Below are positions 11,335-32,015 of a DNA stretch of 64,000 nucleotides, piece by piece (position 1 is the stretch's first letter; each line of letters starts with the position of its first letter). Below the pieces are notes generated by a model, which saw only the letters and a list, made by a program, of their open reading frames with translations, searched no databases and had not been told where the DNA came from. Made by a program: the position numbers and the translations under genes. This DNA is from a virus, in IMG/VR virus record IMGVR_UViG_3300002835_000134, positions 1 through 64,000 of that record, one strand, 5' to 3'.

Positions 11335-11346
11335 GGGGGAAAGACA

Positions 11347-12318
11347 ATGTCAAAAAAGTTTTTAGTTAGTATTGACCTCAATAAAAATGAGTTACTCAAT
11401 GCTAGAATTCAAAATTTAGGATCAGCACCAAGCAGCCCAGTATCAGGTCAGGTTTACTACAATACTGGCGATAATATCATGTACTTCTGGAATGGAACAG
11501 AGTGGATTTCTACTTCTGGCTCATTAGAAGTTATTCAAGATGCAATTGGAGCATACGTAGAGGGCGGAGTAGGTCTTACAAGATCTTACAACGACACCAC
11601 TGGTGTAACAACAATAGATTTAGATAACACAGCAGTCACAGCTGGAACATATGGTTCAATTACCAAGGTTCCAACATTTACCGTTGATCAGCAAGGACGA
11701 CTAACTGGAGCTAGCGAAGCTAATCTAGTTATTCCTCTAGATACACAAACAACAGGGGACTATGTAGCAACAATTGTTGGAACAGCCAACGAAGTTACAG
11801 TATCTCCAAATAGTGGTCATAATGCTGCAGTAACTATAGGTCTTCCAGATAACGTAGAGATTACTGGTAACTTACAAGTTGGCGGAAACTTAAATGTTAT
11901 TGGAACAGTTAACTCTGTAAATACTACACAGATTAACATTGAAGATAACAAGGTAAAGCTTAATAGCAATTTCACAGGAACTCCAACAACAGATGCAGGA
12001 ATTGTTGTAGAGCGTGGAACACAGACAGATGTTGAAATTCTATGGAATGAAACTTCAGATAAGTGGACATTAACAAATAATGGCACAAACTATCACGCAA
12101 TTGCAAGAAAGTATGCAGAAGTTCTTTCAGCTGCATCCACAACCCACCCAGTACTTCACAGGTTGGGCACAACAGAAGTAACAGTTCAGATATTTGAAGC
12201 ATCATCTCCATTTGCACAAATTGAAGCAGATGTAAAAATAACAGACGAAAATTCTGTAACTATTGATTTTGCCGTTGCTCCTACAGCAGGGCAATACAAG
12301 GTAGTAGTAGTAGGATAA
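11347..12318 (+). CDS. Tail fibre-like protein
   Basis: The 323-residue protein starts after GGGGGAAAG. An N-terminal GQVYYNTGDNIMYFWNGTEW module is typical of phage fibres. The centre is beta-helix-like (GNLQVGGNLNVIGTVNSV), and the C-terminal domain (about 245-323) resembles the globular ends seen in other fibre proteins. It belongs to a run of appendage genes in the same direction. Confidence 0.65.
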   Translation: MSKKFLVSIDLNKNELLNARIQNLGSAPSSPVSGQVYYNTGDNIMYFWNGTEWISTSGSLEVIQDAIGAYVEGGVGLTRSYNDTTGVTTIDLDNTAVTAGTYGSITKVPTFTVDQQGRLTGASEANLVIPLDTQTTGDYVATIVGTANEVTVSPNSGHNAAVTIGLPDNVEITGNLQVGGNLNVIGTVNSVNTTQINIEDNKVKLNSNFTGTPTTDAGIVVERGTQTDVEILWNETSDKWTLTNNGTNYHAIARKYAEVLSAASTTHPVLHRLGTTEVTVQIFEASSPFAQIEADVKITDENSVTIDFAVAPTAGQYKVVVVG

Positions 12319-12321
12319 TAA

Positions 12322-12783
12322 ATGTCACGTCAAATGAAGGTTGCATTAAACCTGTTAACAATACAGGATGATCCAGCCAATGCTCGTGAGGGTGACGTTT
12401 ACTATAATGTCATTACAAAAAACTTACGTATATTTAATGGTACAGTCTGGATAGAGCTTACACCCCCAAGCGATGACCCAACTCCATTTTATGAGCATAC
12501 ACATACATATGACGGAAAACTACATACAGTAGATGTTAGAAACCCAATAAGGTTTCAAGATTTTAATGAAAATGCAGGGCCTGCAGAATCTTTACCAATA
12601 GTTGCAGGTATAATAGGAGGAGGGCCAGAGGACGATTTGATAAATCCAAATTATACTCAATTAACTTTGTTTAGTGGTGGCGCTCCAGATTCAATACCAG
12701 AACCAGAAGAAGACTACACACTGTTAGAAGGAGGAGCTTCACAAGAACAAGACTCAACAGTTATTGATTTTGGAGGAGCATAA
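12322..12783 (+). CDS. Small appendage protein with GxVYYN module
   Basis: The 153-residue protein has the REGDVYYNVITKNLRIFNGTVW module shared with the preceding gene, followed by an acidic Pro/Gly-rich tail (SIPEPEEDYTLLEGGA). It starts four bases after the previous stop without a clear ribosome-binding site, so it is coupled. The role is probably structural. Confidence 0.6.
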   Translation: MSRQMKVALNLLTIQDDPANAREGDVYYNVITKNLRIFNGTVWIELTPPSDDPTPFYEHTHTYDGKLHTVDVRNPIRFQDFNENAGPAESLPIVAGIIGGGPEDDLINPNYTQLTLFSGGAPDSIPEPEEDYTLLEGGASQEQDSTVIDFGGA

Positions 12784-12786
12784 ATA

Positions 12787-14616
12787 ATGTCAACAAAAAT
12801 TCTATTTAGAAGAGATACATCTATAAACTGGACAACAGTAAACCCAGTTTTACTTTCAGGTGAAATCGGTATTGAAACCGATACATATAAATTTAAAATA
12901 GGTAATGGTTCTAGATGGAACCAGCAATCATTTTATGCATTTAAAGTAGGCGCAGCTAATGGTGTTGCAACGCTTGGCGCAACTGGAAAAGTTCCAATTT
13001 CTCAATTGCCAGATTATGAGTCAGTTAATACTGAAGTACAGGCAGTAGTTGATGCAAAGTTTAGCACTCAATCAACAAGCAATTTATCAGAAGGATCTAA
13101 CTTATACTTTACAAATGCAAGAGCGCTTGCTGCTAATGCATCAGCAATTTCTAATGCTGCCACCGCTGAATCGGTAGCAAGAAGCTCAGCAATTGCAGCA
13201 GCCAAAGCAGAAGCAATTGCAGCAGCAGAAACTTCATCGACATCAGCAATTGCAGCAGCTAGAGCAGGAATTTTAACAGAAGCTTATTCAGATGCTACAA
13301 ACATAGCAGGATCACTTGTTACACAGGAAGCAGCAGCAAGATCTTTAGAAATAACTGCAGCAATAGACGAAGAGGTGTCAGATAGAAATAGTGCAATAAA
13401 TACTGCAATTTCTAATGAAATTATTAACAGAAATATTGCAATAAATTCTACGACTACAACTCAAATTGCAGAAGGAACTAATTTATACTTTACAGACGCC
13501 AGAGCAAAAGCAGCTGTTGCATCAGATATTGCTACAGCCACAGCAAGCGTTTCCCTGACAGGGAAAACAACAAATCACCTTGCAGAAGGCACATTAAATA
13601 AATACTTTACAGATGCCAGAGCTTTATCTGCAACAAACTCAAAGTTTACACAAGCAACAATTTACACAAATACGGTAGCAGAAGAATTAAGAGCAGAAAT
13701 TGCAGCAGCCTATGTAACAAATCCATCGTTATCTAACCAGCTAGGAGCATATGTTTCTGAAGGAGATAAAGATCAGCCAGGAGGATACGCTGGCTTAAAC
13801 AATTCTTCTCAAATTTTAGAGTCAGTTATTCCATCAACAATTGCAAGAACGACAGACATTACAACAGCAATTGCAAATGTTGTTAATTTAGCCCCAGACT
13901 CACTAAATACTTTAGGTGAGCTTGCAACTGCTTTTCAGGCAGATCAAAGCGGTCTTGCAGCATTAGTAACTACAGTAGGAACAAAATTAGACTCATCCGT
14001 AGCTGCTACAACATATGCACCAAAAGCAAATCCAACCTTTACAGGAACAGTCGCTGGAATTACAAAGACTCACGTAGGCCTAGGAGATGTTGATAACACA
14101 TCAGATATAAATAAGCCAATTTCAACGGCAGTAAATACCGCTCTAGATCTCAAGGCTCCATTAAATAGCCCTGTATTTACTGGGGCTATAGATTTTACTG
14201 GAGTGGATGTAACTGGATTAACAGCAATTGCAGGACTTCCAGATCAGACATCACATTCTAATAAATTTTTAATGACTAATGGCTCTAGCCCTAGCTGGGA
14301 AACTTTAGACGTTTCTGCTTTAGCACCACTAGCAAACCCAACATTCACAGGAACAGTTTCATTTACAAATGCCACTGTTAACTTTAGTGATTCTTCAATA
14401 CCAAGCGCAGCATTAGAAGGCGTAATCCCAAATACTAAATTAGAAAAATCTTCTATCGGTATTAACGGAAACGTGGTTTATCTAGGAGACGTAGTAACAC
14501 TTGGAGGATATTCAAATGCCGCCAGCCCTAATGCACAAAACAAAATATTGTATGGAACTTCTGTTGATGCGCCAGCTGGCACATACGTAGCAGGAGACAT
14601 TTACATTCAATACTAA
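12787..14616 (+). CDS. Long tail fibre with coiled-coil repeats
   Basis: The 609-residue protein starts with the virion-attachment module FRRDTSINWTTVNPV..GEIGIETD, also found in the 20258 gene. It continues with Ala-rich helical repeats (AIAAAKAEAIAAAETS) alternating with NLYFTNARA motifs, and with ANPTFTGTV..THVGLGDVDNTSD segments typical of trimeric fibres. It is probably a receptor-binding or side fibre. No enzymatic motif is seen. Confidence 0.7.
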   Translation: MSTKILFRRDTSINWTTVNPVLLSGEIGIETDTYKFKIGNGSRWNQQSFYAFKVGAANGVATLGATGKVPISQLPDYESVNTEVQAVVDAKFSTQSTSNLSEGSNLYFTNARALAANASAISNAATAESVARSSAIAAAKAEAIAAAETSSTSAIAAARAGILTEAYSDATNIAGSLVTQEAAARSLEITAAIDEEVSDRNSAINTAISNEIINRNIAINSTTTTQIAEGTNLYFTDARAKAAVASDIATATASVSLTGKTTNHLAEGTLNKYFTDARALSATNSKFTQATIYTNTVAEELRAEIAAAYVTNPSLSNQLGAYVSEGDKDQPGGYAGLNNSSQILESVIPSTIARTTDITTAIANVVNLAPDSLNTLGELATAFQADQSGLAALVTTVGTKLDSSVAATTYAPKANPTFTGTVAGITKTHVGLGDVDNTSDINKPISTAVNTALDLKAPLNSPVFTGAIDFTGVDVTGLTAIAGLPDQTSHSNKFLMTNGSSPSWETLDVSALAPLANPTFTGTVSFTNATVNFSDSSIPSAALEGVIPNTKLEKSSIGINGNVVYLGDVVTLGGYSNAASPNAQNKILYGTSVDAPAGTYVAGDIYIQY

Positions 14617-14630
14617 GAACGGAGAAATAA

Positions 14631-17600
14631 TTGCCATTTAAAATTTTTGACGGGTCCTCTTGGTTGCCGTCCAAAAAAATTAAAGTCGTAACGGGTGCAG
14701 GCCCACAAGACTATAAGAAGGCATTTATTTTTAACGGAACATCATGGGTAGAAATATTAGAAAAGCCAAAAAAGCTAACAGATCCAACTTTATCATATTC
14801 AAGAACAGATGAGTTTAAAGGAGTTGGACAAACAGTAACCTCTACAAATGGAACTTGGGAAGGTAGTCCAACATCTTACAAGTACCAGTGGGAAAAGGGA
14901 ATATATGCTGGGGCAGAGATCAACTGGTCAGAAATTACTGGGGCAACACAAAATAGTTTCCTATTAACTGGAGATCTAGTTGGATATAAAATTAGATGCG
15001 CTATTATTGCTACAAATAATGCAGGTGACAGCGAAAAAGCTTATGGGACATCTGCATTCATCATGTTGCCTGAATTCATTCAAACAATAACTGCATTTGT
15101 GCAGCAAGATAGTGTCGGATATATAAACGGAAAAATTAGAGTATTTTGGGATATATCTGAAGGCGCAGACGGATATGAAATAATTTATCAAGGTCCAGGA
15201 ATTCCAAATACTGTAGTAAGAATTACAGGACAAGGAAACAACCTTTGGGACTTTGATTTCGGAGCTAATAATTTAGACGATCTTATTGGATTAACGACTG
15301 TTGGGATATCTATAGCTCCATATAACAACACATCTTCTGCCGCTGCGGCATACAGAGCGGCAATTGGAAGCAATGAAACTGAAACCTTAAAGCTTTACCA
15401 AAACGCAAGCATTAATAATTTAAATCCCTTATTGCCATCATTAACTGCAACTGTTTATCAAAATCCTGGAGGAGTAGATGATCAGGCTGGAATTATTGAT
15501 TGGTCTTTGATTAATATAACACAGACGAGATATGAAATTTACTCAGAGTGGCCAGACGGAAGTCCGTTTGGTCCATTTGCTATGGCAACTAGAGATGCCA
15601 CATCAAGCTTTATAACAAATTATACACCAGGCTCAACGTCTGGACCATGGAAAGTTCGTGTATATGGAACATCACGAGGATATCGTGGAACACCTACAGT
15701 TGTAGACTTCTTTAATCCAACACAAGAATATTATTGGGAATCAGATTCAGGCTCATTCGTATCTTCTTCTGTAAAACCAGTTTCTAGCACTCCACCAACA
15801 CTAACCCCTACTGGGGATGTAGGTTCTGGAATAACTATAACTGCAAATCAAGGAGAATGGACAAACACTCCAACCTCTTACAATATAAATATTATGAAGC
15901 TTAGCCCACTAACAATTGTAGCAAGCGGTACAACAAGTGCTACTTATACAACAACCCAGCAAGACCTTACAGACCAGGCAGAGTTTAAGGCATATGCTAC
16001 TGCAACAAATAGTGCTGGTACAAGCTTAACAGCAGAGTCTACAACTACAACAAGATGCTTTACCGCAAGCACAATTCCAAGTGGAGGAGTAGCTAATATA
16101 TTTGGTAGCGGACAAGTAGGCACTACAATTTCAATGAGCACTACTGGATGGTCTACTGGTAGCGGTCTACCACTTGGTTACAATACAACTTTACAAAAAA
16201 TGGACGGCCAGGCAAATTATGTTGATATGGGAGTTACTTCTTATGTAGTAACAGCAGCAGATTTATCCAACTACATATCTAAAGGAGGAGGATCTTTTCC
16301 TCAAATGTTTAGAGCTAAAGCAAGTGCATATAACTCTGCAGGAACATCAGATCCAGTTTATTCTAGCTCCATTACTGCAAGTGCTTCAACCTTTATTGTT
16401 CCTAATTTTGTTGGAGGTTCAGTTCCTTCAAGCACCAGCCAATATACAATTTCTAATGGCGGACAAGGAAACTTTACATCTAACCTTTCTTCAGTTGGAT
16501 TAGTATCATCACAGTCCCCAGCTGCTGGTACAACAGCAAATGTTGGATCAACAATTACTGTGTATACATACGCATACCAGGCAGCTGGAGTTGCTCCATC
16601 AGGAGGACAGGCATCGATATCTGGAACTGGAGTTGTTGGAACAACTATAACAGCTGGAATTTTAACAGCAGCTACAGGAACTCCAACACCAACTTCATCA
16701 ATTCAACTTCAAGCAAGTGATTCAAACTTAAACTTTGTAGACACAGGAAGCACAAGTGTAACAGTAACACAGGCAGACGTAGAAGTATATATTAGCAAGG
16801 GTGGAGTATCAGCTCCAAGACAATGGAGAGCAAAGCTTGTTTCGACAAATGCTAGTGGTACAGAAACAGTCTACACTGGTTCTATTTCTGCTTCTGCTGC
16901 AGTTATATCACCTACTTTCCCAACCTTCCCAACCTTCCCAACTTTCCCAACCTTCCCAACATTTAAGGCGCCATCTTTCCCAACGTTCCCAACTTTCCCA
17001 ACCTTCCCAACTTTCCCAACGTTCCCAACTTTCCCAACGTTCCCAACGTTCCCAACATTTAAGGCGCCATCTTTCCCAACGTTCCCAACATTCCCAACGT
17101 TCCCAACGTTCCCAACGTTCCCAACGTTCCCTTACTTCCCTGCATTTAAGGCGCCATCTTTCCCTACTTTCCCTACCTTCCCTACCTTCCCAACGTTCCC
17201 AACATTCCCAACCTTCCCAACCTTCCCTGAATTTAAAGCAAGTAAATCTTGTTTAGAAGCAAATACCAGGTTGCTAACATTAAATAATGGTTATGTTGCA
17301 GCAAAAGATATATCAATTGGAGATAAACTAGTTTCTATTTCAGCAGCAGACTTCGGCAATCAATCAATGAAGTTCTTTAATGTCAATAAAGATGTAAATC
17401 TTGTAGGCGTTGAAGTTATTAAATCTGAAATGTCAACAAAGGATGTTCTTTCATTCAACGGAACAGAAAAGTATTTCTCTTACGGACAGCCAATATTTAT
17501 TAAGCAAGACGGACTTGCAACATGGGTAGAAGCGGGATCGGTAAAAATTGGAGATACTCTATTAACAATAGACGGCTCTACAATAAATGAAGTTTTGGTT

Positions 17601-17696
17601 AACTCCATAGAGACAGATACTGATAAAGAAGTATACGATATCAGGACACTAGAAAACCAGTGGTTTATTGCAGAAGGATTTATTGTAATTAGTTAA
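14631..17696 (+). CDS. Ig/PASTA fibre with (PTF)n repeat and C-terminal Hint domain
   Basis: This 1,021-residue protein starts at TTG 14631 after CGGAGA. It has several Ig-like modules (SNGTWEGSPTSYKYQW type) and a PASTA-like segment (about 590-650; IVPNFVGGS...GSTITVYTY), a fold that can bind peptidoglycan. A Phe-Pro-Thr repeat with three KAPSF spacers spans about 761-867. C874 begins a 148-residue Hint domain (CLEANTRLLT, IGDKLVSIS, IGDTLLTI, VYDIRTLENQWFIAEGFIVIS). The protein ends where inteins have His-Asn, so N-terminal cleavage or ligation, not splicing, is expected. The block B His is Gln (FSYGQP). Confidence 0.75.
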   Translation: MPFKIFDGSSWLPSKKIKVVTGAGPQDYKKAFIFNGTSWVEILEKPKKLTDPTLSYSRTDEFKGVGQTVTSTNGTWEGSPTSYKYQWEKGIYAGAEINWSEITGATQNSFLLTGDLVGYKIRCAIIATNNAGDSEKAYGTSAFIMLPEFIQTITAFVQQDSVGYINGKIRVFWDISEGADGYEIIYQGPGIPNTVVRITGQGNNLWDFDFGANNLDDLIGLTTVGISIAPYNNTSSAAAAYRAAIGSNETETLKLYQNASINNLNPLLPSLTATVYQNPGGVDDQAGIIDWSLINITQTRYEIYSEWPDGSPFGPFAMATRDATSSFITNYTPGSTSGPWKVRVYGTSRGYRGTPTVVDFFNPTQEYYWESDSGSFVSSSVKPVSSTPPTLTPTGDVGSGITITANQGEWTNTPTSYNINIMKLSPLTIVASGTTSATYTTTQQDLTDQAEFKAYATATNSAGTSLTAESTTTTRCFTASTIPSGGVANIFGSGQVGTTISMSTTGWSTGSGLPLGYNTTLQKMDGQANYVDMGVTSYVVTAADLSNYISKGGGSFPQMFRAKASAYNSAGTSDPVYSSSITASASTFIVPNFVGGSVPSSTSQYTISNGGQGNFTSNLSSVGLVSSQSPAAGTTANVGSTITVYTYAYQAAGVAPSGGQASISGTGVVGTTITAGILTAATGTPTPTSSIQLQASDSNLNFVDTGSTSVTVTQADVEVYISKGGVSAPRQWRAKLVSTNASGTETVYTGSISASAAVISPTFPTFPTFPTFPTFPTFKAPSFPTFPTFPTFPTFPTFPTFPTFPTFPTFKAPSFPTFPTFPTFPTFPTFPTFPYFPAFKAPSFPTFPTFPTFPTFPTFPTFPTFPEFKASKSCLEANTRLLTLNNGYVAAKDISIGDKLVSISAADFGNQSMKFFNVNKDVNLVGVEVIKSEMSTKDVLSFNGTEKYFSYGQPIFIKQDGLATWVEAGSVKIGDTLLTIDGSTINEVLVNSIETDTDKEVYDIRTLENQWFIAEGFIVIS
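16911..17234 (+). repeat. 9-bp coding repeat, (Phe-Pro-Thr)n
   Basis: Units of TTCCCAACn run in frame, interrupted by three copies of a 15-base spacer encoding FKAPS at 16962, 17058 and 17145 (96- and 87-bp periods). Such arrays expand and contract by slippage, so stalk length may vary. Confidence 0.9.
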
Positions 17697-17708
17697 TAAA
17701 TAATGCTG

Positions 17709-17714
17709 TATAAT
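17709..17714 (+). promoter_or_regulatory. -10 box before 17743 gene
   Basis: TATAAT is preceded by TG (TGCTGTATAAT). No convincing -35 is seen at 17 bases. It gives a leader of about 22 bases containing AAAGGAGG. Confidence 0.45.
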
Positions 17715-17742
17715 ATACACATAGGCAGTAAAAGGAGGAAAA

Positions 17743-18291
17743 ATGGCTACCAGCTTTCCAACAAGTAAAGATAACCTCTCTAATCCATCTGCAAATGATG
17801 AGCTTACGGGACATGCGGCACAACATACAAATGCCAATGATGCAATTGAGGCACTAGAAACAGTAGTAGGTGTAACTGGATCAACAGATTCAAACTCTAT
17901 CACATATAAGGTTAACCTTATAAATGACACACTGGTTTCAATGACAAATGCAACAGATGCAATTTCAACCCTTTTTGGCCTTGAAGGCAACAACGACCTA
18001 ACAGTCAATGGAATTGAGAATAAGACAACTATAGATAGCTTCCAGGCGTCAGACTATAGAACAGCTACCTATTCTCTTCAGATAAGTCGTGGAACAGAGT
18101 ATTATTTCTCTAATATCAGCGTTCTACACGACTCCACAAACATATACGTTTCAGAATCAGACATAGTCTCAAATACGAACAACAATCTTGCCAACGTATT
18201 GTTTGAACAATCCAATGGTATAATTAATCTAACGGTCACACCAGTTTCAACGGCTGTAACGGCTAGATATTTTAGAACGGCATTAAAGTAA
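17743..18291 (+). CDS. Appendage protein, 182 residues
   Basis: The start has a perfect AAAGGAGG. The N-terminal HAAQHTNANDAIEALETVVG is a helical module common in phage fibres. The C-terminal part (QASDYRTATYSLQIS) is a beta domain that matches the end of the next gene (AADYRTAKALVKF). This suggests exchangeable tips. The role is probably structural. Confidence 0.65.
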   Translation: MATSFPTSKDNLSNPSANDELTGHAAQHTNANDAIEALETVVGVTGSTDSNSITYKVNLINDTLVSMTNATDAISTLFGLEGNNDLTVNGIENKTTIDSFQASDYRTATYSLQISRGTEYYFSNISVLHDSTNIYVSESDIVSNTNNNLANVLFEQSNGIINLTVTPVSTAVTARYFRTALK

Positions 18292-18318
18292 ATAAAGCAG
18301 TAAGAGGAGTCATAAAAT

Positions 18319-19758
18319 ATGGCAATTGTAAATAAAAACTTTAGAGTAAAGAATGGTCTTATTGTCGACGGTTCCGTCGCAACAGTAAATGGCTATAATG
18401 TATTAACAGAGGCATCAACAGCTTTTATTATCTCAACAATTGGCGGATCAGCAGATAGCGCAAACACTCCTAATTCTGTTGTTAAGCGTGATGGAAATGG
18501 AAACTTTGCTGCAGGCACAATTACAGCAACCTTCCTAGGCAACGTAACTGGTGACGTAACAGGTACAGTTTCAAGCATTTCAAATCATGACACAAATGAT
18601 TTAGTAGAAGGAACAGGCGCAGGTTCAAATCTATATTTTACTAATGCAAGAGCATTAGCAGCCACAGCAGCAGCATACGATGCAGCAGGTTCAGCAGCAG
18701 CAGCACAAGCAAATGCAGCAACAGATGCAACATCAAAGGTTGCAGCAGAAGCTACAGCACGTACTTCAGCAATTGCATCAGCAATTGCTACAGAGGTTGC
18801 TGATAGAAATACCGCAATTGCAACTGCCAAATCAGAAGCAATTTCTGCAGCAGCAGCAGACGCCACAACTAAGGCTAACGCAGCGCAAGCAGCAGCATCA
18901 GCAGACGCCACAACTAAGGCTAACGCAGCGCAAGCAGCAGCAGAGGCTACCGCAGCAGCAGCTCTTTCAACTGCAATATCAACAGAAGTTTCAGCTCGTA
19001 ATACAGCAATTTCAACTGCAGTAGATTCATTAGTAGATGGAGCACCATCTCTTCTTAACACATTAAATGAATTGGCAGCAGCAATAAATGACGACGCTAA
19101 TTACACAACAACTCTTACATCAGCATTAGCTACAAAGGCTAATTCAACTGATGTTACAGCATCAATTGCAACCGCAGTAAGCACTGCATCATCTGACGCT
19201 ACAACCAAGGCTAACGCAGCCCAAGCAGCAGCAGAGGCAACAGCAGCAGCAGATGCTACAGCAAAGGTTTCAGCAGAAGCAGCCCTAAGAGTATCTGGCG
19301 ATTCAGCTTCAGTTGCAACAGCAGCAGCAGATGCTACATCTAAGGCTAACGCAGCGCAAGCAGCAGCAGAGGCAACAGCACAATCTGCTCTAAATGCAGT
19401 CAAGGATGGAACTACAAAGTTTACAGCAGTAAATGTAAACGATGTGGCTGTAGTAAAAGCAGCAACCACAACAGTATCATCAGCAAGCACTGTAAATGCT
19501 CTTACATGGGCAGCAGCAGATTATCGTACAGCTAAGGCTCTTGTTAAGTTCAAGAATGGAGCAAATACTCAAGTTTCTGAGATCTTGCTCACACTTGATA
19601 CCAGCAATAACGTGGCAATAACAGAATTTGGTTCAATTGGAACCAACGGAGATCTAGGCTCAATTTCAGCAGCCTATGTTTCAGGAAATGTTTCAATATC
19701 AGTAACCACAGTATATGCCTCGACAGATGTCATGGTATATGCAACATTAATTAAATAA
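18319..19758 (+). CDS. Ala-rich coiled-coil fibre
   Basis: The 479-residue protein has an N-terminal module (MAIVNKNFRVKNGLIVDGS) nearly repeated in the 19825 gene. A long Ala-rich helical stalk of 15-residue repeats (ADATTKANAAQAAA) follows, with an NLYFTNARAL motif and a C-terminal beta tip shared with the 17743 gene. AGAGGAG precedes the start. It is probably a trimeric fibre. The repeat DNA contains exact 42-base duplications. Confidence 0.7.
   Translation: MAIVNKNFRVKNGLIVDGSVATVNGYNVLTEASTAFIISTIGGSADSANTPNSVVKRDGNGNFAAGTITATFLGNVTGDVTGTVSSISNHDTNDLVEGTGAGSNLYFTNARALAATAAAYDAAGSAAAAQANAATDATSKVAAEATARTSAIASAIATEVADRNTAIATAKSEAISAAAADATTKANAAQAAASADATTKANAAQAAAEATAAAALSTAISTEVSARNTAISTAVDSLVDGAPSLLNTLNELAAAINDDANYTTTLTSALATKANSTDVTASIATAVSTASSDATTKANAAQAAAEATAAADATAKVSAEAALRVSGDSASVATAAADATSKANAAQAAAEATAQSALNAVKDGTTKFTAVNVNDVAVVKAATTTVSSASTVNALTWAAADYRTAKALVKFKNGANTQVSEILLTLDTSNNVAITEFGSIGTNGDLGSISAAYVSGNVSISVTTVYASTDVMVYATLIK
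18856..18942 (+). repeat. 45-bp tandem coding repeat
   Basis: The 42 bases at 18856-18897 recur identically at 18901-18942, and diverged copies occur near 19187 and 19325. They encode the Ala-rich stalk and are likely sites for recombination. Confidence 0.85.
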
Positions 19759-19773
19759 TTAAATAACAAGGTA

Positions 19774-19794
19774 TGGGGTCCTTTCAAAACCCCA
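19774..19794 (+). terminator. Weak hairpin between fibre genes
   Basis: TGGGGT and ACCCCA form a 6-bp stem with a nine-base loop, followed by A-rich rather than T-rich sequence. It could be a weak terminator, pause site or processing signal. Confidence 0.3.
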
Positions 19795-19824
19795 ACAAAA
19801 CAATTAGGGGATATGTGAACTTAA

Positions 19825-20196
19825 ATGGCAACAGTAGATAAAAACTTCAAGGTAAAAAATGGCCTTAATGTAGCAGGTGCTGCCACTTTTGGTGCAGCAG
19901 TAAATGTAGAAAACTTAGTCTTAAATTCAACCCCCCTAGCTTTTGACTCTTCAACTGGACGACTAAAAATCCAGATTGGCGGAGTTTGGAAAGAAATTGC
20001 TCTATTAGTAGATGCACAAGAAGACCCAACAGCACTGACATTCATGGACATTGGTTTGGCTATCGATTACGATGGCTCACCAGTTTATAGCGTCTTTGCC
20101 AATGGAGTAAACACCGTAGCAACAAAGTTTGCCGATGGTGGAAGCTATACAACAGATACATTTAGCTACACATTCGATTCTGGAACAATTGCTTAA
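19825..20196 (+). CDS. Small appendage protein, 123 residues
   Basis: The N-terminal MATVDKNFKVKNGLNVAGA matches the start of the 18319 fibre, indicating a common virion-docking module. The rest is a compact beta domain. The ribosome-binding site is weak (AGGGGA, 15 bases off). It ends with an AT-rich hairpin at the stop codon. Confidence 0.6.
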   Translation: MATVDKNFKVKNGLNVAGAATFGAAVNVENLVLNSTPLAFDSSTGRLKIQIGGVWKEIALLVDAQEDPTALTFMDIGLAIDYDGSPVYSVFANGVNTVATKFADGGSYTTDTFSYTFDSGTIA

Positions 20197-20216
20197 TTGT
20201 TTTGGAATTATTGTGA

Positions 20217-20225
20217 TGCTATAAT
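20217..20225 (+). promoter_or_regulatory. Extended -10 promoter
   Basis: TGcTATAAT is a consensus extended -10. The leader to ATG 20258 is about 26 bases with AAGGGG. Confidence 0.65.
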
Positions 20226-20257
20226 TACCAAATAAGTCTAAATAAGGGGTGGCATAA

Positions 20258-22477: not shown

Positions 22478-23953
22478 ATGGCAAATAAAAGAGTAGGTAT
22501 TCAATCTTCGGCTCAGGACAACTTCCTTGAGCCAAATGCAGTCACATCTTTAGCTTCCACTGCCGTAAATGGTGGAGCAAGCGGAAGTGGATCAGTAAAC
22601 CTAACTTGGTCTTTACCAGCTGCATCTCCACCAGCAACACTTTATACAATTACATCAACTCCAGCAACAACAACACAAAGTACCACAGGAACTTCTTTTA
22701 CTTTTCCTGGCTTAACTGGAGGAACTTCTTACACATTTACTGTAGTAGCATCAAATGCAGCAGGAAATAGCTTACCAGCTACTTCCCCTGCAGCTACTCC
22801 AACTACTTTGCCAAATGCGCCATCAGCGCCAACAGCATCTTCTCCAAATGCTAATCAGGACACAGTTTCCTGGGCAGCACCATCTGATTTAGGAGGAACT
22901 CCAAACACTGGATACATCCTTAAGTCTTCTGATGGACCAACATATAATCTTGGTGCAGGAGTAACATCAACAACAATTAATGAAACAGCTGGAACAGCTC
23001 AGACTTATCAAGTTCTTGCAAAGAATGCAAATGGTGATGGCCCATATTCAACTTCATCAAATAGCGTTACTACAACAGCACCATACTTCCCACCGTTCTT
23101 CCCATTCTTCCCACCGTTCTTCCCATTCTTCCCGTTCTTCCCACCATACTTCCCACCGTTCTTCCCATTCTTCCCGTTCTTCCCACCATACTTCCCACCG
23201 TTCTTCCCATTCTTCCCGTTCTTCCCACCATACTTCCCACCGTTCTTCCCATTCTTCCCGTTCTTCCCACCATACTTCCCACCGTTCTTCCCATTCTTCC
23301 CGTTCTTCCCACCATACTTCCCACCGTTCTTCCCATTCTTCCCGTTCTTCCCACCATACTTCCCACCGTTCTTCCCATTCTTCCCGTTCTTCCCACCATT
23401 CTTCCCGCCTGGGTTTGGACCGTTCTTCCCACCAGGGTTCGGACCGTTCTTCCCACCGTTCTTCCCACCAGGGTTTGGACCGTGGTTTAAGTCTAAGTTT
23501 TGTATTGAAGAAGACTCAGAGGTGTTAACTTCAAATGGATACATCTTAGCAAAGGATGTAAAGGTTGGAGATGTACTTCTCACAATTGATCCATCCGAAC
23601 TAAATAATGGAGATATGACTTCAGATATAGTTCTAAGAGATAAGGTAACACTTAGCGAGACAACTGTTGTCAAGCATGAATTAAGTCAAAAAGATTTAAT
23701 TAAGTTCAACGGCTCTGAGACACTATTCTCAGAAGGACAGCCAATCTTTGTAAAAGAAGGCGACTTAATTAAATACAAGGAGACTGGACAGGTTCAAGTT
23801 GGAGACATACTTGTAACCCTAAGAGTAGAATCTTGCGAGATAATATTCGAGACAGTTGACACTATTGAAAAGCTTCCAGCAAAGGATGTCTATGACATAA
23901 GATGCGAGCCATCACAATGGTTCATAGCAGGAAACTACATAGTAATATCTTAA
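22478..23953 (+). CDS. FN3 protein with Phe/Pro repeat and C-terminal Hint domain
   Basis: The 491-residue protein has two fibronectin type III domains (about 20-110 and 113-200) and a Phe/Pro/Tyr repeat (about 203-335; six exact copies of a 14-residue unit). A 150-residue Hint domain then starts at C342 (CIEEDSEVLTSNGYILAKDVKVGD) and ends VYDIRCEPSQWFIAGNYIVIS. As in the 14631 protein, the usual block B His is Gln (FSEGQP) and the terminal His-Asn is absent. Cys-dependent release or transfer of the upstream part is therefore plausible, but splicing is not. It sits just before a strong terminator and the oxygenase cluster. Confidence 0.75.
   Translation: MANKRVGIQSSAQDNFLEPNAVTSLASTAVNGGASGSGSVNLTWSLPAASPPATLYTITSTPATTTQSTTGTSFTFPGLTGGTSYTFTVVASNAAGNSLPATSPAATPTTLPNAPSAPTASSPNANQDTVSWAAPSDLGGTPNTGYILKSSDGPTYNLGAGVTSTTINETAGTAQTYQVLAKNANGDGPYSTSSNSVTTTAPYFPPFFPFFPPFFPFFPFFPPYFPPFFPFFPFFPPYFPPFFPFFPFFPPYFPPFFPFFPFFPPYFPPFFPFFPFFPPYFPPFFPFFPFFPPYFPPFFPFFPFFPPFFPPGFGPFFPPGFGPFFPPFFPPGFGPWFKSKFCIEEDSEVLTSNGYILAKDVKVGDVLLTIDPSELNNGDMTSDIVLRDKVTLSETTVVKHELSQKDLIKFNGSETLFSEGQPIFVKEGDLIKYKETGQVQVGDILVTLRVESCEIIFETVDTIEKLPAKDVYDIRCEPSQWFIAGNYIVIS
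23141..23392 (+). repeat. Six exact 42-bp coding repeats
   Basis: Six consecutive 42-base units start with CCACCATAC and encode PPYFPPFFPFFPFF. Shorter related units flank them (23084-23140 and 23393-23490, including three FPPGFGP copies). The absence of silent changes between copies implies recent expansion or homogenisation. Confidence 0.92.
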
Positions 23954-24045: not shown

Positions 24046-24792
24046 ATGACTAATATACAGGATGACTGGTTTGAAAAAGATAGGTCTGAAACTTCTTCAA
24101 ATAGAAAAGCAGACGTAATGTTTGGGGACATTAAAGTAACCAATGAGGCGTTAGGCTTAGACCTATATAACAATGCATTAGACCAAACGAGAATACAGTG
24201 GTACATAGATACACTAGAAAAGAATCTAAAGCCAGGAACTAAGTATCATTGGAACGAAGCCCGTGTAACAAATTCAGATCAGCCAATTAAAAAGGCTAGA
24301 GACTGTGTTGATTTTAAGATGAACTACAGCACACTTGGCGGTAAACAGAATGAAGAAAATGCTGAGCTATGGCAAGTCTATGATGAAATTTATAAAAAGC
24401 TTAAGTCTTGTGTTGATCACTACTGCAGGTACTGGGGAATTAATGTAACATATTACGAGGTATTTAATTTTGTAAAGTATGAAGGCGAAGGCAAAGAGTT
24501 TAAGATTCATGCAGACGATGGCCCAATGTACAAGGCAGCTGTGTCAGCAGTGATTTACTTAAATGACGACTATGAGGGTGGAGAGATCTATTACCCACGA
24601 ATGGACAATAAGACAATTAAGCCAAAGCAAGGAGACATAGCAATCTTTCCTTCTAATTACATATATGAACATGCGTCTCTTCCTATAAAGTCTGGAACAA
24701 AATATTGCGTTGTTATAATGATGGATTTAAATGATATGGCCCACCAGGGACATATTCAAAATGCTGCTGCTGCAGCATCTTCACCGTACTAA
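24046..24792 (+). CDS. 2OG-Fe(II) oxygenase 1 of cluster
   Basis: The 248-residue protein has iron ligands H155, D157 (KIHADDGP) and H209 (YEHAS), with Lys in SGTKY as the probable 2-oxoglutarate contact. YLNDDYEGGEIYYP is the signature strand pair shared by all paralogues. The N-terminal 90 residues are most like those of the next gene (both have RDCVDFK). The family includes prolyl 4-hydroxylases. It is the first gene after a terminator and has its own leaderless promoter. The C-terminal tail is Ala-rich. The substrate is unknown; neighbouring proline-rich fibres are candidates. Confidence 0.88.
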   Translation: MTNIQDDWFEKDRSETSSNRKADVMFGDIKVTNEALGLDLYNNALDQTRIQWYIDTLEKNLKPGTKYHWNEARVTNSDQPIKKARDCVDFKMNYSTLGGKQNEENAELWQVYDEIYKKLKSCVDHYCRYWGINVTYYEVFNFVKYEGEGKEFKIHADDGPMYKAAVSAVIYLNDDYEGGEIYYPRMDNKTIKPKQGDIAIFPSNYIYEHASLPIKSGTKYCVVIMMDLNDMAHQGHIQNAAAAASSPY

Positions 24793-24800
24793 GGAGAAAA

Positions 24801-25538
24801 ATGGAAACGATAGACCCAGCTCAAGAAATTAAAAAGCTGCAAGACCAAAAGTATATTAGCGAATGGGAAGCAGAGCAGCACAGACCAATCAAGCAGACCT
24901 GGACAGAAAAAATTGATCTAGGAAACGGAATCTGGTGCTATAGAAATGTATTGCCAGCAGGTAGAAACATCCCAGAAAGACTTGAAGAAATCCTTGCAGC
25001 AAAAGATAATCAGTATGAGTGGATGCCAGCTTACGTGGGCTACCAAGAAAGAATGCCAGACTATAGAGATTGTGTTGACTTTAAATACAAGAAGACAGAT
25101 ATCTATGGAGAAAAAGAAGCAGACAATAAGCTGAGAGAAATTTGGCAAGAGTGCTATGACCCTCAATACCAAGCAGTTCGTGACTATTGTAGAATATATA
25201 ACATTCATAATTTAAGATACTGGGAAGCATTTAACTTTATTAGATACGAGCCTGGAAATCACTTTATGGAGCACCACGACCATGGCTATTCATACAACTG
25301 TACAGTTTCACTTGTAGGATATTTCAATGACGACTATGAGGGTGGAGAGCTTTACTTTAGACTGCAAAATCTAAACCTTAAACCACAAGCAGGAGACCTG
25401 TTTATTTTCCCTTCAAACTTTATGTATCCTCATCAAGCTAAAAAGGTTGTATCAGGAACTAAATATTCAATAGTAACAATGCTAGACTATAGCGCCAAAT
25501 TCCATACACAAGAAATGTTTATTGAGACAGGTGACTAA
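24801..25538 (+). CDS. 2OG-Fe(II) oxygenase 2 of cluster
   Basis: The 245-residue protein starts after AAGGAG. H158-x-D160 (EHHDHG) and H211 (YPHQA) are the iron ligands, and SGTKYS holds the probable 2-oxoglutarate Lys. FNDDYEGGELYF is the family strand. It is the closest paralogue of the preceding gene, from which it is separated by eight bases, suggesting tandem duplication and divergence. Confidence 0.88.
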   Translation: METIDPAQEIKKLQDQKYISEWEAEQHRPIKQTWTEKIDLGNGIWCYRNVLPAGRNIPERLEEILAAKDNQYEWMPAYVGYQERMPDYRDCVDFKYKKTDIYGEKEADNKLREIWQECYDPQYQAVRDYCRIYNIHNLRYWEAFNFIRYEPGNHFMEHHDHGYSYNCTVSLVGYFNDDYEGGELYFRLQNLNLKPQAGDLFIFPSNFMYPHQAKKVVSGTKYSIVTMLDYSAKFHTQEMFIETGD

Positions 25539-26998: not shown

Positions 26999-27679
26999 AT
27001 GGATAAAAAAGCAGCCAGTAATTGGGGATGGGATGAAAGAGTTTCAATAACTCCTTCAGGTTTCTTTGGAAACTCTCCAGACAATATTCAATCTAGAGAA
27101 AACATAATGACTCTAGAAGAGCACAAGTTTCTTTTGGAAGCAGCTCGATCTATTGAAGAGTGGGACATAACAGAGACACATTACAATGAAAATGGAACAG
27201 TAATTTACGACTCAACCTACTGGGATAATCGTGTTGCATCAAGACCGATCCTAGATAAAATTAATCCAGAGATATCAGTAGTTATTGAAAGAATAGTGGC
27301 AAGGCTTAAAAAAGAAGTTGATGAATACTTTAATGTTGATGCACTCCCAACAAGCCCAGCAATCGTTAGATGGCTTCCAGGATACAGACAAGAGCCACAC
27401 GCAGACAAAGAGTTGCACACTGGTCCAGATGCTGGCAAACCAAACGATTTCCCTTACTATGATCTTTCAGGATTGTTTTATTTAAACGATGATTATGAGG
27501 GTGGCGAACTTTATTTCCCAAATCAAGGCATAGAGTTTAAGCCTAAGCCTGCAGCAGGATACTTTTTCCCAGGAGACATGAATTATATTCACGGCGTAAA
27601 AGAAATAACAAGCGGAATTAGATATGTAATTCCTTTCTTCTGGACCATATTGAAGCATACAGGAGATAAGCAGCCATGA
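26999..27679 (+). CDS. 2OG-Fe(II) oxygenase 3 of cluster
   Basis: The 226-residue protein has H134-x-D136 (PHADKE) and H198 (YIHGVKE) as iron ligands, with SGIRY supplying Arg for 2-oxoglutarate. YLNDDYEGGELYFPN and the KPAAGYFFPGD strand are conserved. The N-terminus differs from genes 1 and 2, which suggests another substrate. It begins a second transcription unit inside the cluster and overlaps the next start by ATGA. Confidence 0.88.
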   Translation: MDKKAASNWGWDERVSITPSGFFGNSPDNIQSRENIMTLEEHKFLLEAARSIEEWDITETHYNENGTVIYDSTYWDNRVASRPILDKINPEISVVIERIVARLKKEVDEYFNVDALPTSPAIVRWLPGYRQEPHADKELHTGPDAGKPNDFPYYDLSGLFYLNDDYEGGELYFPNQGIEFKPKPAAGYFFPGDMNYIHGVKEITSGIRYVIPFFWTILKHTGDKQP

Positions 27680-28551
27680 CCAAGCAATGTATTTGTGGAA
27701 GATCTCAAACATATCCTTACTGCGATAACACTCATAAAATTAAAAAACAGAGACCAGAAGAAGAAATAAAGTTTGAAGAAATTTATCCAAAGGTTTATGT
27801 CTACAAAAATTTATTTAAGGATATAAATGGATTTCTTGAGTCAGCTAAAAAACAAGAAGGCTGGGAGAAATGGTATACCTTTGGGTCTATGCTTTCTTTA
27901 ATGGAGCAAAGAATAAATTTTGAAAAATTCCCAACAGAGGAACAATACAAGTGGGCAAGATCTTGGGGCCCAGTTTCAAGTCAATCGGATTTAACTGAAG
28001 AAGTAGGAAACATATTTTATAAGGTAACTAATCACTACCTTAAAAATAATCCAGATGTAGCGCTTCCTAATTATAGTAAAGGCTCAGCATCTATTAATAT
28101 CTATGAGAATGATTCTGGAATTTCAGAACATTATGCGATGAATTATCACACAGATTTTGTTGTGCCGCTTAAAGATAATCCAGGTGTAAAGTTTGGCTTA
28201 ACAACAACGTTCTATTTAAACGACGACTATGAAGGCGGCGAGATATGTTTTAAGATTAACGACCACTACATATCACATAAGCCACAGGCTGGAGATGTTA
28301 TCGTTTTCCCATCAAGAGATCCTTATATGCACGGAGTTAGAAAGTCATTTGGACCACGCAGATACATGATTAGATGCTTCTGGGAATTTGAAGATAAGGG
28401 TTCAGATGAGTGGCATGCCAATAAAGCAAAGTATGGCGAAGAAGTCTGGGATCAAATGGAAAAGGATAGATATAAAAAAGAAATTTTTAATGCACAGATT
28501 GATGGAGAGTCGGTTCACGAATTCTTTGGAAGGGACAACGGTAAATACTAA
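27676..28551 (+). CDS. CDGSH iron-sulphur motif fused to 2OG-Fe(II) oxygenase
   Basis: The 291-residue protein starts with a CDGSH-type [2Fe-2S] ligand set: C5, C7, C16 and H20 in the order C-x-C-x2-S-x3-P-x-C-D-N-T-H, with Asn for the usual Gly. The oxygenase domain follows, with H158-x-D160 (YHTDF) and H219 (YMHGV) as iron ligands and RRYMIR as the 2-oxoglutarate site. FYLNDDYEGGEI is the family strand. The cluster might pass electrons to keep the iron reduced or sense redox state. The fusion is the unusual feature. The C-terminal 40 residues match gene 5 (WHANK.KYGEE.W.QM). Confidence 0.85.
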   Translation: MTKQCICGRSQTYPYCDNTHKIKKQRPEEEIKFEEIYPKVYVYKNLFKDINGFLESAKKQEGWEKWYTFGSMLSLMEQRINFEKFPTEEQYKWARSWGPVSSQSDLTEEVGNIFYKVTNHYLKNNPDVALPNYSKGSASINIYENDSGISEHYAMNYHTDFVVPLKDNPGVKFGLTTTFYLNDDYEGGEICFKINDHYISHKPQAGDVIVFPSRDPYMHGVRKSFGPRRYMIRCFWEFEDKGSDEWHANKAKYGEEVWDQMEKDRYKKEIFNAQIDGESVHEFFGRDNGKY

Positions 28552-29315
28552 TGATAGATGGAATGATTGATATTATAGATAAAAATAAATTTATATATCT
28601 TCAAGATGATGAGGTCCCAGATAATAAGCGGGGAGTCTTGGGTGTAACTCGTAATACTGTTGTAGAGATACCAGATTTTATTGATCCAGAAATAGTCACA
28701 AAGATGATTAACTTTTTTGAAAACTGTGACGTAGAGTGGGGAGACATTGCATTCTACGGATCGTCGGGCAAGGGAATCAAGACAGACTCAGAAACTATGG
28801 CTAAGTTTGGATTGCCAGATGGTTTTTTTGATAAGCTAAAAGACAAGTACAAAGAAGCAGTTGAAACTGTTTTTGATAGAAAGGTTAGAGCAAATACATC
28901 TCATGCACAAAAATGGGATGTTGGAGGCTTTGCAAGTCCACACTCAGATAACTCAGATAATTCAGGAAAGCCAAATGCTTTTGAGATTAATAAATATGTG
29001 GGCATACTTTATTTAAATAATGACTATGAGGGTGGAGACCTTTATTTTTGCGACAAAGATAATGAAATGAAAACATATTTATCTTTTAAGCCAAACGCAT
29101 ATTCCTATTACGTATTCCCAGGAGGCTATGAAAATATCCACGGAGTTTCAGAGATAACCGACGGAACAAGATATACAATGGTATCGTTCTGGGACTATGA
29201 AGAACTAGTCTATGATCAAGAGACACTTGATCGATGGGAAGAAGAAGAAAAGCAAGTTAGAATTGAACAGGCAAAGCAGAAAGAAGAATGGAATAAGGGA
29301 AACAAATATGCTTGA
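28551..29315 (+). CDS. 2OG-Fe(II) oxygenase 4 of cluster
   Basis: The 254-residue protein starts at an ATG overlapping the previous stop. H131-x-D133 (PHSDNSD) and H197 (NIHGVSE) are the iron ligands, and DGTRYTM provides Arg. YLNNDYEGGDLYF is the family strand. The N-terminal half (VVEIPDFIDPEIVTKMINFFE) is the usual helical support. The C-terminus is a charged helix. The coupled arrangement suggests co-expression with the CDGSH fusion. Confidence 0.88.
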   Translation: MIDGMIDIIDKNKFIYLQDDEVPDNKRGVLGVTRNTVVEIPDFIDPEIVTKMINFFENCDVEWGDIAFYGSSGKGIKTDSETMAKFGLPDGFFDKLKDKYKEAVETVFDRKVRANTSHAQKWDVGGFASPHSDNSDNSGKPNAFEINKYVGILYLNNDYEGGDLYFCDKDNEMKTYLSFKPNAYSYYVFPGGYENIHGVSEITDGTRYTMVSFWDYEELVYDQETLDRWEEEEKQVRIEQAKQKEEWNKGNKYA

Positions 29316-30159
29316 AGGTACAGATTTTTATAAGATAGCTCCAAAGATTATTGTTTACAAAAATGTCTTCAATAATGACTATTTTATGGAATGTTTTGAA
29401 CACATTAAGTCTACTGATGATATGTGGGTAGACTGGTACACATTTGGCAAGCAGACAAACTTTCCAGTTAAAGCTACTAGACCACACAATGTTCCAGGAG
29501 TTTTGCCCTATAATGAATTTAAACAAGATATTAATTTTGACGAAGTCACAGATGAAAAGCTTAAATTTTTCTATAACTACGTAGAAGATGTTTTTTATAA
29601 TATGACCAAGCACTACTTTGAGATTGTTGGCGAAACACCTCCAGAAGGCTCTCCAATAAGTCATACAACTGCTACTCTTCTAAAGTATATACCTCATGAA
29701 AGCTTTCAGCCTGATGGATCAGTTATGGGACATCACACAGATTTCCAGCAAGAAAAAACTGAAGAGCCAGGTTATAAGTTTTTTGTAACATGCTGCATGT
29801 ATTTAAATCATGATTACGACGGCGGAGAAGTGTCATTTAAGATATTTAAAGATGAGTCAAATGATCCAAATGCAGAATATACAAGACACATGTATAAGCC
29901 TCAATTTGGAGACGTAACAATTTTCCCATCAAGAGCCCCATACTATCACGGAGTAAAGACTGTAACAAATGGAATAAAGTATTTTATTAGAAGCTTTTAT
30001 ATGTATGAATATCCAGGCTCGGAAGCATGGCATGCAAACAAAGATAAGTATGGTGAAGAGCTATGGAGACAGATGGATAGAGAGAGACAGATAGCTGATC
30101 TAAAATCTGGTAAAAATACAAGAGATGAAGCAGACGAAAAAAATGGAAGAAATGGATAG
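29308..30159 (+). CDS. 2OG-Fe(II) oxygenase 5 of cluster
   Basis: ATG 29308 is chosen because AAGGGA precedes it and the product then begins MLEGTDFYKIAPKI, matching paralogues. A longer frame from 29212 would overlap the upstream gene by over 100 bases. H143-x-D145 (HHTDF) and H214 (YYHGV) are the iron ligands, and NGIKYFIR the 2-oxoglutarate site. The protein shares its C-terminal WHANKDKYGEELW segment with the CDGSH fusion, so these two are sister genes. Confidence 0.87.
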   Translation: MLEGTDFYKIAPKIIVYKNVFNNDYFMECFEHIKSTDDMWVDWYTFGKQTNFPVKATRPHNVPGVLPYNEFKQDINFDEVTDEKLKFFYNYVEDVFYNMTKHYFEIVGETPPEGSPISHTTATLLKYIPHESFQPDGSVMGHHTDFQQEKTEEPGYKFFVTCCMYLNHDYDGGEVSFKIFKDESNDPNAEYTRHMYKPQFGDVTIFPSRAPYYHGVKTVTNGIKYFIRSFYMYEYPGSEAWHANKDKYGEELWRQMDRERQIADLKSGKNTRDEADEKNGRNG

Positions 30160-30754
30160 CGTAAACCTAACCCAATACGGGAAGATACATTACTATGAAA
30201 ATGTTATTGCTGATCCCGACTACCTAATTAATTTAATAGAGCTTTCTGACGGAGGCTTAAATGAAAACACCAGTATCCCTGCGTGGAAAGAATGGGCGGC
30301 AAGCGGAGATACAGAGTATGTATTTGGCTATCAAAAAAGATTTAGCAACAATGTAGATACAGACACGCACCCAGACATAAGAAGAATTAATAATATTTTA
30401 AAGAATGCAATTGTAGGCTCTTCAGAAAACTATGGCAATATGCATGGTATGGACATCGGTTCTCTAATGCCATTATCAATAAGCAAATACTCCACTGGAA
30501 AGTCAATGGGCCCACATGTTGATGATTATAGCAATGGAGACAATCCAAATATTTCTGTTGTACTTTATCTAAACGATGATTACGAAGGCGGAGAAATTTA
30601 TTTTAAAGAGCAAGGCGTAAAAATAAAGCCAAAGGCTGGAAGCATAGTAATATTCCCTTCGGTAGAGCCGTACTATCACGAGTCTTTACCAGTAACCAGT
30701 GGTGTAAAATATATGTGCCCAGGATTCTGGCGTAAAACTGACAAGGTGGTATAA
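30143..30754 (+). CDS. 2OG-Fe(II) oxygenase 6 of cluster
   Basis: The start is uncertain: ATG at 30125, 30143 or 30152, all inside the previous gene's end. About 203 residues are expected. H125-x-D127 (PHVDDY) and H179 (YYHES) are the iron ligands and SGVKY the 2-oxoglutarate Lys. YLNDDYEGGEIYF and KPKAGSIVIFPS are the family strands. This is the shortest and most minimal paralogue. The next promoter overlaps its stop codon, and the following gene encodes a collagen-like fibre. Confidence 0.87.
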   Translation: MEEMDSVNLTQYGKIHYYENVIADPDYLINLIELSDGGLNENTSIPAWKEWAASGDTEYVFGYQKRFSNNVDTDTHPDIRRINNILKNAIVGSSENYGNMHGMDIGSLMPLSISKYSTGKSMGPHVDDYSNGDNPNISVVLYLNDDYEGGEIYFKEQGVKIKPKAGSIVIFPSVEPYYHESLPVTSGVKYMCPGFWRKTDKVV

Positions 30755-30761: not shown

Positions 30762-32015
30762 ATGGCTACTACAGGTATAAACGGTTGGCGTTTCCCAACA
30801 TATACAGACTCACCAGATGTCCCTAGAGATCTGCTTAACCTTGCAGACGACATTTCTGCATGGGTTTCATCAAATCCAGATTTAAAGGGTGACCAAGGAA
30901 ATCCAGGAACTGCCGCTACCATAGTGGTTGAATCAGTTGATGTTCTTCCTCCAGGCTCAATGCCAGAAGTCGTCAACGTAGGAACAGCTACAGCAGCAAG
31001 ATTTAATTTTAAAATTCCCAGAGGCGTAGATGGCGTACTAGGTGGTCCAGGACCAGCAAATGTAATTGCAGTAAATCCAACAACTACTGGGCTGGCTGGA
31101 ACACAAGCTAATGTAACAATTTCCGAACAAACAATTACCAATGGAATACCATCACAAACTTTAACATTTACAATACCTAAAGGCGACAAAGGCGATACTG
31201 GCCTAACAGGAGCTAAGGGTGACAAGGGAGATACTGGTCCCGCAGCAGCAACAATTACAGTAAACCCTACGGTAGTAAATGGTTTGCCAGGAACAACACC
31301 AGCAGTAACTAACTCAGGCTCATCTAGCGCAGTTGTATTAAACTTTACAATTCCCCGTGGAGCAACAGGAGCAGACGGCGCACCAGGAGCACCAGGAGCA
31401 CCAGGAGCAGACGGCGCACCAGGAGCAGACGGCGCTAACGCAGTCCTTGATCCAATAAATCAAGTTATTAGTTTAAATCTTCCTAACGGAGCAGCAGACG
31501 GAGTTAACTCACACTGGTATCCACTTGGATCTGGAACATGGAGTATAGGAAAAGATGCAACAACTGGCCCAGCCAAGTCTTGGAAAGATGCTTTTTTTAC
31601 AGGAACAATTAGAGCAGCATCTGTTATAGCATCAGGCAATATGTTTATTCAAACTTCCACTATTGTTTCATCAGATATAAATGCAAAGAATACAATTGCT
31701 GAGTCTGACTTAGGCCTAGACTTTATTAATTCTTTAAATCCAGTAAGCTATAAATACAATGTTGGAGGGATTACTTATACTCCAAATGAAGACGGAAGCC
31801 ATTCTGAGACACCAGTAGCTGGTAATAGAACACACTACGGATTAATTGCACAAGAAGTAAAGCAAGCACTAGATGAAGCTGGAGTTGCAGATTTTGGCGG
31901 GTGGGTAAATCAAGAAGATAATACTCAGGCTTTAAGATATGAAGAGTTTATATCTCCACTAATCAAAGCAGTACAAGAGCTTACAGCGAGAGTAAAAGCA
32001 ATAGAAGAGGCGTAA
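30762..32015 (+). CDS. Collagen-like fibre with S74 intramolecular chaperone
   Basis: The 417-residue protein has Gly-x-y triplets in several blocks (PKGDKGDTGLTGAKGDKG near 150; GADGAPGAPGAPGADG near 205) alternating with beta modules of the AVNPTTTGLAGT type. From about residue 300 it carries a peptidase S74 chaperone domain (SSDINAKN, then INSLNPVSYKY, HYGLIAQEV), which trimerises the fibre and then cuts itself off through a Ser/Lys pair. It is translated leaderless and directly follows the hydroxylase cluster. Pro residues in the y position would be natural hydroxylation targets. Confidence 0.8.
   Translation: MATTGINGWRFPTYTDSPDVPRDLLNLADDISAWVSSNPDLKGDQGNPGTAATIVVESVDVLPPGSMPEVVNVGTATAARFNFKIPRGVDGVLGGPGPANVIAVNPTTTGLAGTQANVTISEQTITNGIPSQTLTFTIPKGDKGDTGLTGAKGDKGDTGPAAATITVNPTVVNGLPGTTPAVTNSGSSSAVVLNFTIPRGATGADGAPGAPGAPGADGAPGADGANAVLDPINQVISLNLPNGAADGVNSHWYPLGSGTWSIGKDATTGPAKSWKDAFFTGTIRAASVIASGNMFIQTSTIVSSDINAKNTIAESDLGLDFINSLNPVSYKYNVGGITYTPNEDGSHSETPVAGNRTHYGLIAQEVKQALDEAGVADFGGWVNQEDNTQALRYEEFISPLIKAVQELTARVKAIEEA

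Follow-up and report, generated by a model that had tools for sequence, protein, structure and literature searches.

In almost all inteins, the N-terminal junction is activated by a histidine at position 10 of block B (B:10), the most conserved intein residue (PMC4031507). Two inteins without this histidine were known at the time of a 2014 review, one of them a pseudogene and the other, Tko CDC21-1, using a lysine instead (PMC4031507). Furthermore, bulky residues at position -1 can compensate for loss of the B:10 histidine in the engineered intein SspDnaB M86 (PMC6333167). The window analyzed here, a 64,000-nucleotide stretch of a 72,625-bp IMG/VR viral record, encodes two proteins in which an aromatic-proline stalk is followed by a C-terminal Hint domain (Table 1). 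Among 65 distinct Hint domains of this type that start with Cys, B:10 was Gln in 59 (protein 1 included), His in 5 and Glu in 1, the block B regex matches having been checked against the alignment.

Table 1. Positions in the window of the two stalk-Hint proteins, their parts and the adjoining oxygenase array
Feature	Position	Strand	Basis or remark
Stalk-Hint protein 1, 1021 aa	14631..17696	+	ORF; fiber N-terminal module, Ig/PASTA-like repeats, (FPT)n stalk, C-terminal Hint
(Phe-Pro-Thr)n stalk of protein 1 with FKAPS interruptions, aa 761-867	16911..17231	+	TRF period 9/18/87, score 393
FKASKS junction ahead of Cys1, aa 868-873	17232..17249	+	Almost every member of the clade has FK...K ahead of Cys
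Protein 1 Hint domain, aa 874-1021; Cys1 = C874; C terminus IVIS, not HN	17250..17693	+	Profile, AF2, Foldseek
Block B S950-Y-G-Q953, where T-x-x-H is usual	17478..17489	+	Alignments, column counts
Block F Asp (F:4) = D1003, in VYDIRT	17637..17639	+	Alignments, column counts
Stalk-Hint protein 2, 491 aa; two Fn3 domains, (FFPPYFPPFFPF)n stalk, Hint	22478..23953	+	ORF, Pfam
Aromatic-proline stalk of protein 2; 14-aa unit x6	23084..23485	+	Repeat analysis
Protein 2 Hint domain; C342; FSEGQPIF; ends IVIS; 44% identical to protein 1 Hint	23501..23950	+	Alignment
2OG-Fe(II) oxygenase, first gene after protein 2	24046..24792	+	PF13640
2OG-Fe(II) oxygenase; nearest solved chains prolyl 4-hydroxylases	24801..25538	+	PF13640
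DUF6065 gene inside oxygenase array	25538-26269		
2OG-Fe(II) oxygenase	26999..27679	+	PF13640
2OG-Fe(II) oxygenase; weak CDGSH-type iron-binding match, below cutoff	27676..28551	+	PF13640
2OG-Fe(II) oxygenase	28551..29315	+	PF13640
2OG-Fe(II) oxygenase	29212..30159	+	PF13640
2OG-Fe(II) oxygenase; PKHD-type and prolyl 4-hydroxylase relatives	30125..30754	+	PF13640
Collagen-like fiber protein, C-terminal Peptidase_S74 chaperone domain	30762..32015	+	Pfam, repeats

The gene encoding protein 1 starts with TTG and is preceded by a ribosome-binding site (GGAG at 14621-14624). Pfam detected a PASTA match (4.1e-5) at aa 614 to 646, and the stalk contains 30 FP dipeptides. As originally predicted, ORF and repeat analysis agree on a (Phe-Pro-Thr)n stalk capped by a C-terminal domain that begins at C874; the predicted absence of a C-extein and of a terminal His-Asn (HN) likewise holds, with the protein ending in ...AEGFIVIS at the last Hint strand. 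Protein 2, which was absent from that prediction, follows the same plan. Its 14-aa (42-bp) stalk unit is present in six copies here (23102-23406) versus two or three in L003-L005 and L010, with the rest of the protein nearly identical; stalk length may change fast, or assembly collapse may lower the copy number. At least seven further fiber-like proteins, with Mtd_N-type starts and Ala-rich repeats, are densely clustered around both stalk genes (10894-22453).

The family alignment comprised 29 rows, with relatives drawn from viral contigs. Compared with PDB sequences, the profile of this alignment matched the entire length of the bacterial intein-like domain 2lwy (1.3e-11) as well as many inteins, and Intein_splicing was matched by 20 of the 29 members in Pfam. 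Structure prediction with AF2 on the same alignment gave a pLDDT of 92.7 and a pTM of 0.83, and the top 50 matches listed by Foldseek against the PDB were Hint domains, including BIL2 (6y75), hedgehog (1at0/6tyy, TM 0.74) and inteins. The Hint fold proposed for the C874 domain is thus borne out by both the 2lwy profile match and the predicted structure. No convincing PHROGs family was found for the domain, and neither of the two Hint domains had a tblastn match among 50,697 cultured phage records; the distant member L051 retrieved only tail proteins of the Erwinia phage Y3 type from cultured phages.

Nearly all loci compared were metagenomic contigs, and the kind of contigs retrieved points to a freshwater origin of the virus. 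The major capsid protein (37251-38300) is 55 to 60% identical to those of two Streptomyces phages (Stanwilliamsviridae), and this relatedness suggests an actinobacterial host and an actinophage-like virus. Scans of the genome collection detected no relative and hence gave no host assignment. A large ORF at 8234-10168 resembles, by eye, a B12-dependent (class II) ribonucleotide reductase.

Features of the Hint superfamily found in the protein 1 domain are the fold, the Cys/Ser nucleophile and the block F Asp. The block B Thr/Ser-x-x-His of active-type Hint domains is replaced by S950-Y-G-Q953, a change that, like protein 2, did not figure in the original prediction. The protein, ending in ...IVIS, has neither the C-terminal Asn and nucleophilic +1 residue of the C-extein that mark class 1 inteins nor the C-terminal His-Asn with non-nucleophilic +1 residue of BIL type A. 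From the motif set of BIL type B, C1, Ser-B7 and Asp-F4 are present and His-B10 is absent, and the protein stops at the last Hint strand, with no sterol-recognition region of the Hog kind after it. As the domain is Hint by fold and nucleophile yet lacks the marks of class 1 inteins, BIL type A and Hog, we file it as a variant of its own among Hint domains, placed in neither class 1 inteins, BIL type A or B, nor Hog. A class 3 (WCT) mechanism was dropped, since the domain has Cys1 and an Asp at block F:4.

The Hint family fell into 32 clusters, almost all of them attached to aromatic-proline stalks encoded on viral contigs. Among 30 cluster representatives, with identities down to about 20 to 30%, 27 had Cys and 3 had Ser at position 1, so that the N-terminal nucleophile is under strict constraint. 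All three Ser1 members (L114, L135 and L136) retain the block B His, a pairing that fits if the weaker nucleophile needs this residue and that, the three forming one clade, counts as at most one or two events. The residue at position -1 was Phe or Tyr in several members of the window clade, protein 2 included, Ser in protein 1, and mostly Pro in the HN-ending sister clade (IPWFGPP). Proline at this position disfavors N-terminal cleavage in inteins.

In a maximum-likelihood tree built from the 32 clusters, the no-HN group with protein 1 formed a single clade (support 100/99), and because it does so, the missing HN is, on these sequences, a single derived loss and not a primary hedgehog-like trait. 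Most of the other members ended in HN, and 51 of 52 had a Lys one or two positions farther on (+1 or +2). Cys1 remained unchanged over the approximately 7 substitutions per site of the no-HN clade tree. Furthermore, C1, Ser B:7, Gln B:10 and Asp F:4 were all among the 21 of 148 columns invariant in seven clade representatives (chance about 3e-4), and an eighth, divergent representative had Glu at F:4 and kept Ser B:7 and Gln B:10. For both Hint domains, dN/dS against relatives was 0.06 to 0.07 at dS of 0.4 to 0.7. As the N-junction residues stayed nearly invariant after HN was lost and dN/dS is about 0.07, the domain is maintained, N-junction center included, while the C-terminal chemistry was given up.

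A DNA-pattern scan detected aromatic-proline stalks on at least 100 stretches of viral contigs. The 123 distinct stalk ends, sorted into approximate classes by regex and with loci fetched by Hint searches counted in, comprised 36 Hint domains, 20 Cys-rich ends and 21 straight FK ends, the others being varied; among short stalk ends without Hint, FK followed by a stop accounted for 21 of 38. In L055, the stalk leads into Peptidase_S74, the junction reading FK and then SDVRDK. The sequence ahead of Cys1 in the protein 1 clade is nearly always of the FK...K kind (FKASKS, FKSKF, FKAPKGY, FKGYK, FKGGKA), and SKGYK precedes Cys1 in L231/L232. Because Hint, S74 and FK ends alternate there, the stalk end is a module boundary at which varied C-terminal devices swap. 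In G001, protein 2 bears a different Hint, while a Hint of the protein 2 type persists as a small stand-alone ORF (L013:5920-6459), situated after protein 2 and before the first oxygenase and served by a GGAGG site of its own. It looks as though one cassette was replaced by another and the old domain stayed in place. FFPP/YFPP stalks were very common in IMG/VR contigs L017-L134, with varied ends that included Cys-rich tips and FK. No account of aromatic-proline phage stalks or Hint-capped fibers was found in the part of the literature covered.

The reading we tentatively favor, at close to even chances, is N-terminal autocleavage at C874, in which Gln takes the role of His and the stalk is left with an end rich in Phe and Lys. 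The Hint on each of the two fiber proteins would then serve as a C-terminal processing cassette. The bond before C874 would be activated by an N-S acyl shift, with Gln953, together with Ser950 and Asp1003, replacing the block B His, and water or a small thiol would free the 16-kDa Hint from a stalk ending in ...FKASKS. A cut before C874 is predicted to yield an N-terminal part of 92.5 kDa, below the roughly 96 kDa first proposed, and a Hint of 16.3 kDa. We speculate that the Hint, in the way of the S74 chaperone that caps other fibers and releases itself, might for example protect the very hydrophobic stalk or keep it in register while the fiber is assembled. Autocleavage is favored because many Hint-less relatives directly encode the Phe/Lys-rich end (...FK stop), and because the Hint swaps with FK-stop and S74 ends and behaves as a swappable cassette in G001. 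It is also favored by the Hint fold, the retained Cys1/Ser1, the N-junction residues kept after the loss of HN and the low dN/dS, and by natural and engineered inteins that can activate the N-terminal junction without the block B His (PMC4031507, PMC6333167), several members of this clade having the bulky Phe or Tyr at -1. The block B His kept by all three Ser1 members also agrees with it. It is disfavored by the loss of the block B His, by a -1 Ser in protein 1 that is not bulky and by the prevalence of Pro at -1 in the sister clade. An N-S acyl shift at C874, originally given as the expected chemistry, is not simply to be expected, because Gln replaces the block B His here and in most of the family. 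The conservation of Cys1 could also have some other cause, for instance a disulfide or a structural role, and the FK ahead of it may be a mere linker.

Appreciably less probable, although still a serious alternative, is a catalytically dead Hint kept as a folded tip, that is, as a cap, an oligomerization domain or a receptor-binding knob. The change of the block B His to Gln and the loss of HN agree with it, as do Pro at -1 in many sister proteins and a protein that ends exactly at the domain, and strong purifying selection suits a structural role equally well. However, all 30 representatives have Cys or Ser at position 1, Cys1, Ser-B7 and Asp/Glu-F4 have outlasted the loss of HN where their loss would be expected in a dead domain, and the sister clades show strong conservation of HN with Lys after it.

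It is quite unlikely that the C874 thioester hands the C terminus of the stalk to a virion protein, lipid or glycan in the manner of hedgehog, or, in a milder form, that BIL-like aminolysis in the HN-Lys relatives gives a stalk whose last residue is the Lys after HN. The hedgehog Hint is among the closest folds in the matches listed, and the Lys after HN and the FK ends of short Hint-less stalks would suit such a transfer; BIL domains, moreover, can ligate without a +1 nucleophile (Aranko 2013, as cited in PMC7664689). However, the parallel in terminal Lys is circumstantial, protein 1 has no C-extein, and the transfer put forward in the original prediction finds neither an acceptor-binding region resembling the sterol-recognition region after the Hint nor a known acceptor. 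That the domain is not a Hint at all and its likeness arose by chance in a beta-rich fiber tip, as might be read from Pfam scores of the protein 1 domain alone that stay below cutoffs (Intein_splicing 1.7e-4, PT-HINT 5e-4), is highly improbable and is refuted at the level of the predicted fold by the 2lwy profile match, the high pLDDT and the presence of only Hint domains among the top 50 fold matches listed.

The seven oxygenases beside protein 2 all contain PF13640 (2OG-FeII_Oxy_3), with an invariant HxD...H triad (H155, D157 and H209); their nearest solved chains, all weak matches, are prolyl 4-hydroxylases, PKHD hydroxylases and procollagen lysyl hydroxylase. Stalks were accompanied by PF13640 genes in every one of the 31 stalk-bearing records examined, usually with 5 to 11 each. 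The first oxygenase domain began at most about 520 bp downstream of a Hint in at least 16 of 18 Hint-bearing records, compared with a mean of 1.5 and a maximum of 7 records under random placement (2000 trials), a conservative count whose statistic treats the 18 records as independent despite possible shared descent of gene order. This repeated adjacency suggests that the stalk prolines may be hydroxylated by the neighboring oxygenases. PF13640 also occurs in a cyanophage and a Methylophilales phage that lack the stalk pattern, so that these oxygenases are not confined to stalk phages; the two capsid-related Streptomyces phages contained neither PF13640 nor the stalk pattern. It is possible, if rather unlikely, that all of this forms a fiber maturation system, in which stalks would be hydroxylated by the prolyl 4-hydroxylase-like array and their ends finished by a His-less, Gln-type Hint, which in the protein 1 clade would cleave and in the HN-Lys clades would splice on a Lys at the end.

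If the domains are active, they would form a large natural set of Hint domains working without the most conserved intein catalytic residue, of use in understanding and engineering cleavage and ligation, and would add a self-processing step to phage appendage assembly alongside S74. Likewise, if the maturation reading is true, the N-terminal junction would work in a large natural Hint family without a residue thought essential. As stalks stand beside prolyl hydroxylase-like arrays in many freshwater viruses, hydroxyproline in phage fibers is directly testable.

With BIL types A and B (2lwy, Clostridium thermocellum), the domain shares the Hint fold, Cys1, occurrence in nonconserved bacterial or phage proteins and the lack of a nucleophilic C-extein. 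The protein 1 clade resembles BIL type B in the absence of the HN motif, and the sister clades resemble BIL type A in having HN without a +1 nucleophile. In contrast to BIL domains, Gln replaces the block B His here, and the domains occupy the extreme C terminus of aromatic-proline phage stalks. Like the hedgehog Hog domain (1at0), protein 1 has a C-terminal Hint without HN and, putatively, N-junction chemistry only; unlike Hog, it stops at the Hint and has neither a sterol-recognition region nor the block B His. The fold, Cys1 and the block F Asp are shared with class 1 inteins, among them the His-less Tko CDC21-1, which offer a precedent for an N-terminal junction active without the block B His, but the phage domain lacks HN, a C-extein and a homing domain and is not embedded in a conserved enzyme. 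Erwinia phage vB_EamM_Y3 gp110 (ARW58750.1, "putative phage tail protein, contains intein domain"), on which no study was found in the literature covered, carries a related Hint near its C terminus, which is 28.8% identical to the L051 relative (E 1e-3); however, it keeps canonical THEH and HN, and its genome is without the aromatic-proline stalk pattern. Peptidase_S74 chaperones of the endosialidase type differ from the Hint in their unrelated fold and Ser/Lys chemistry, but they too are self-releasing C-terminal domains of phage fibers and occupy the equivalent place after the stalk in L055.
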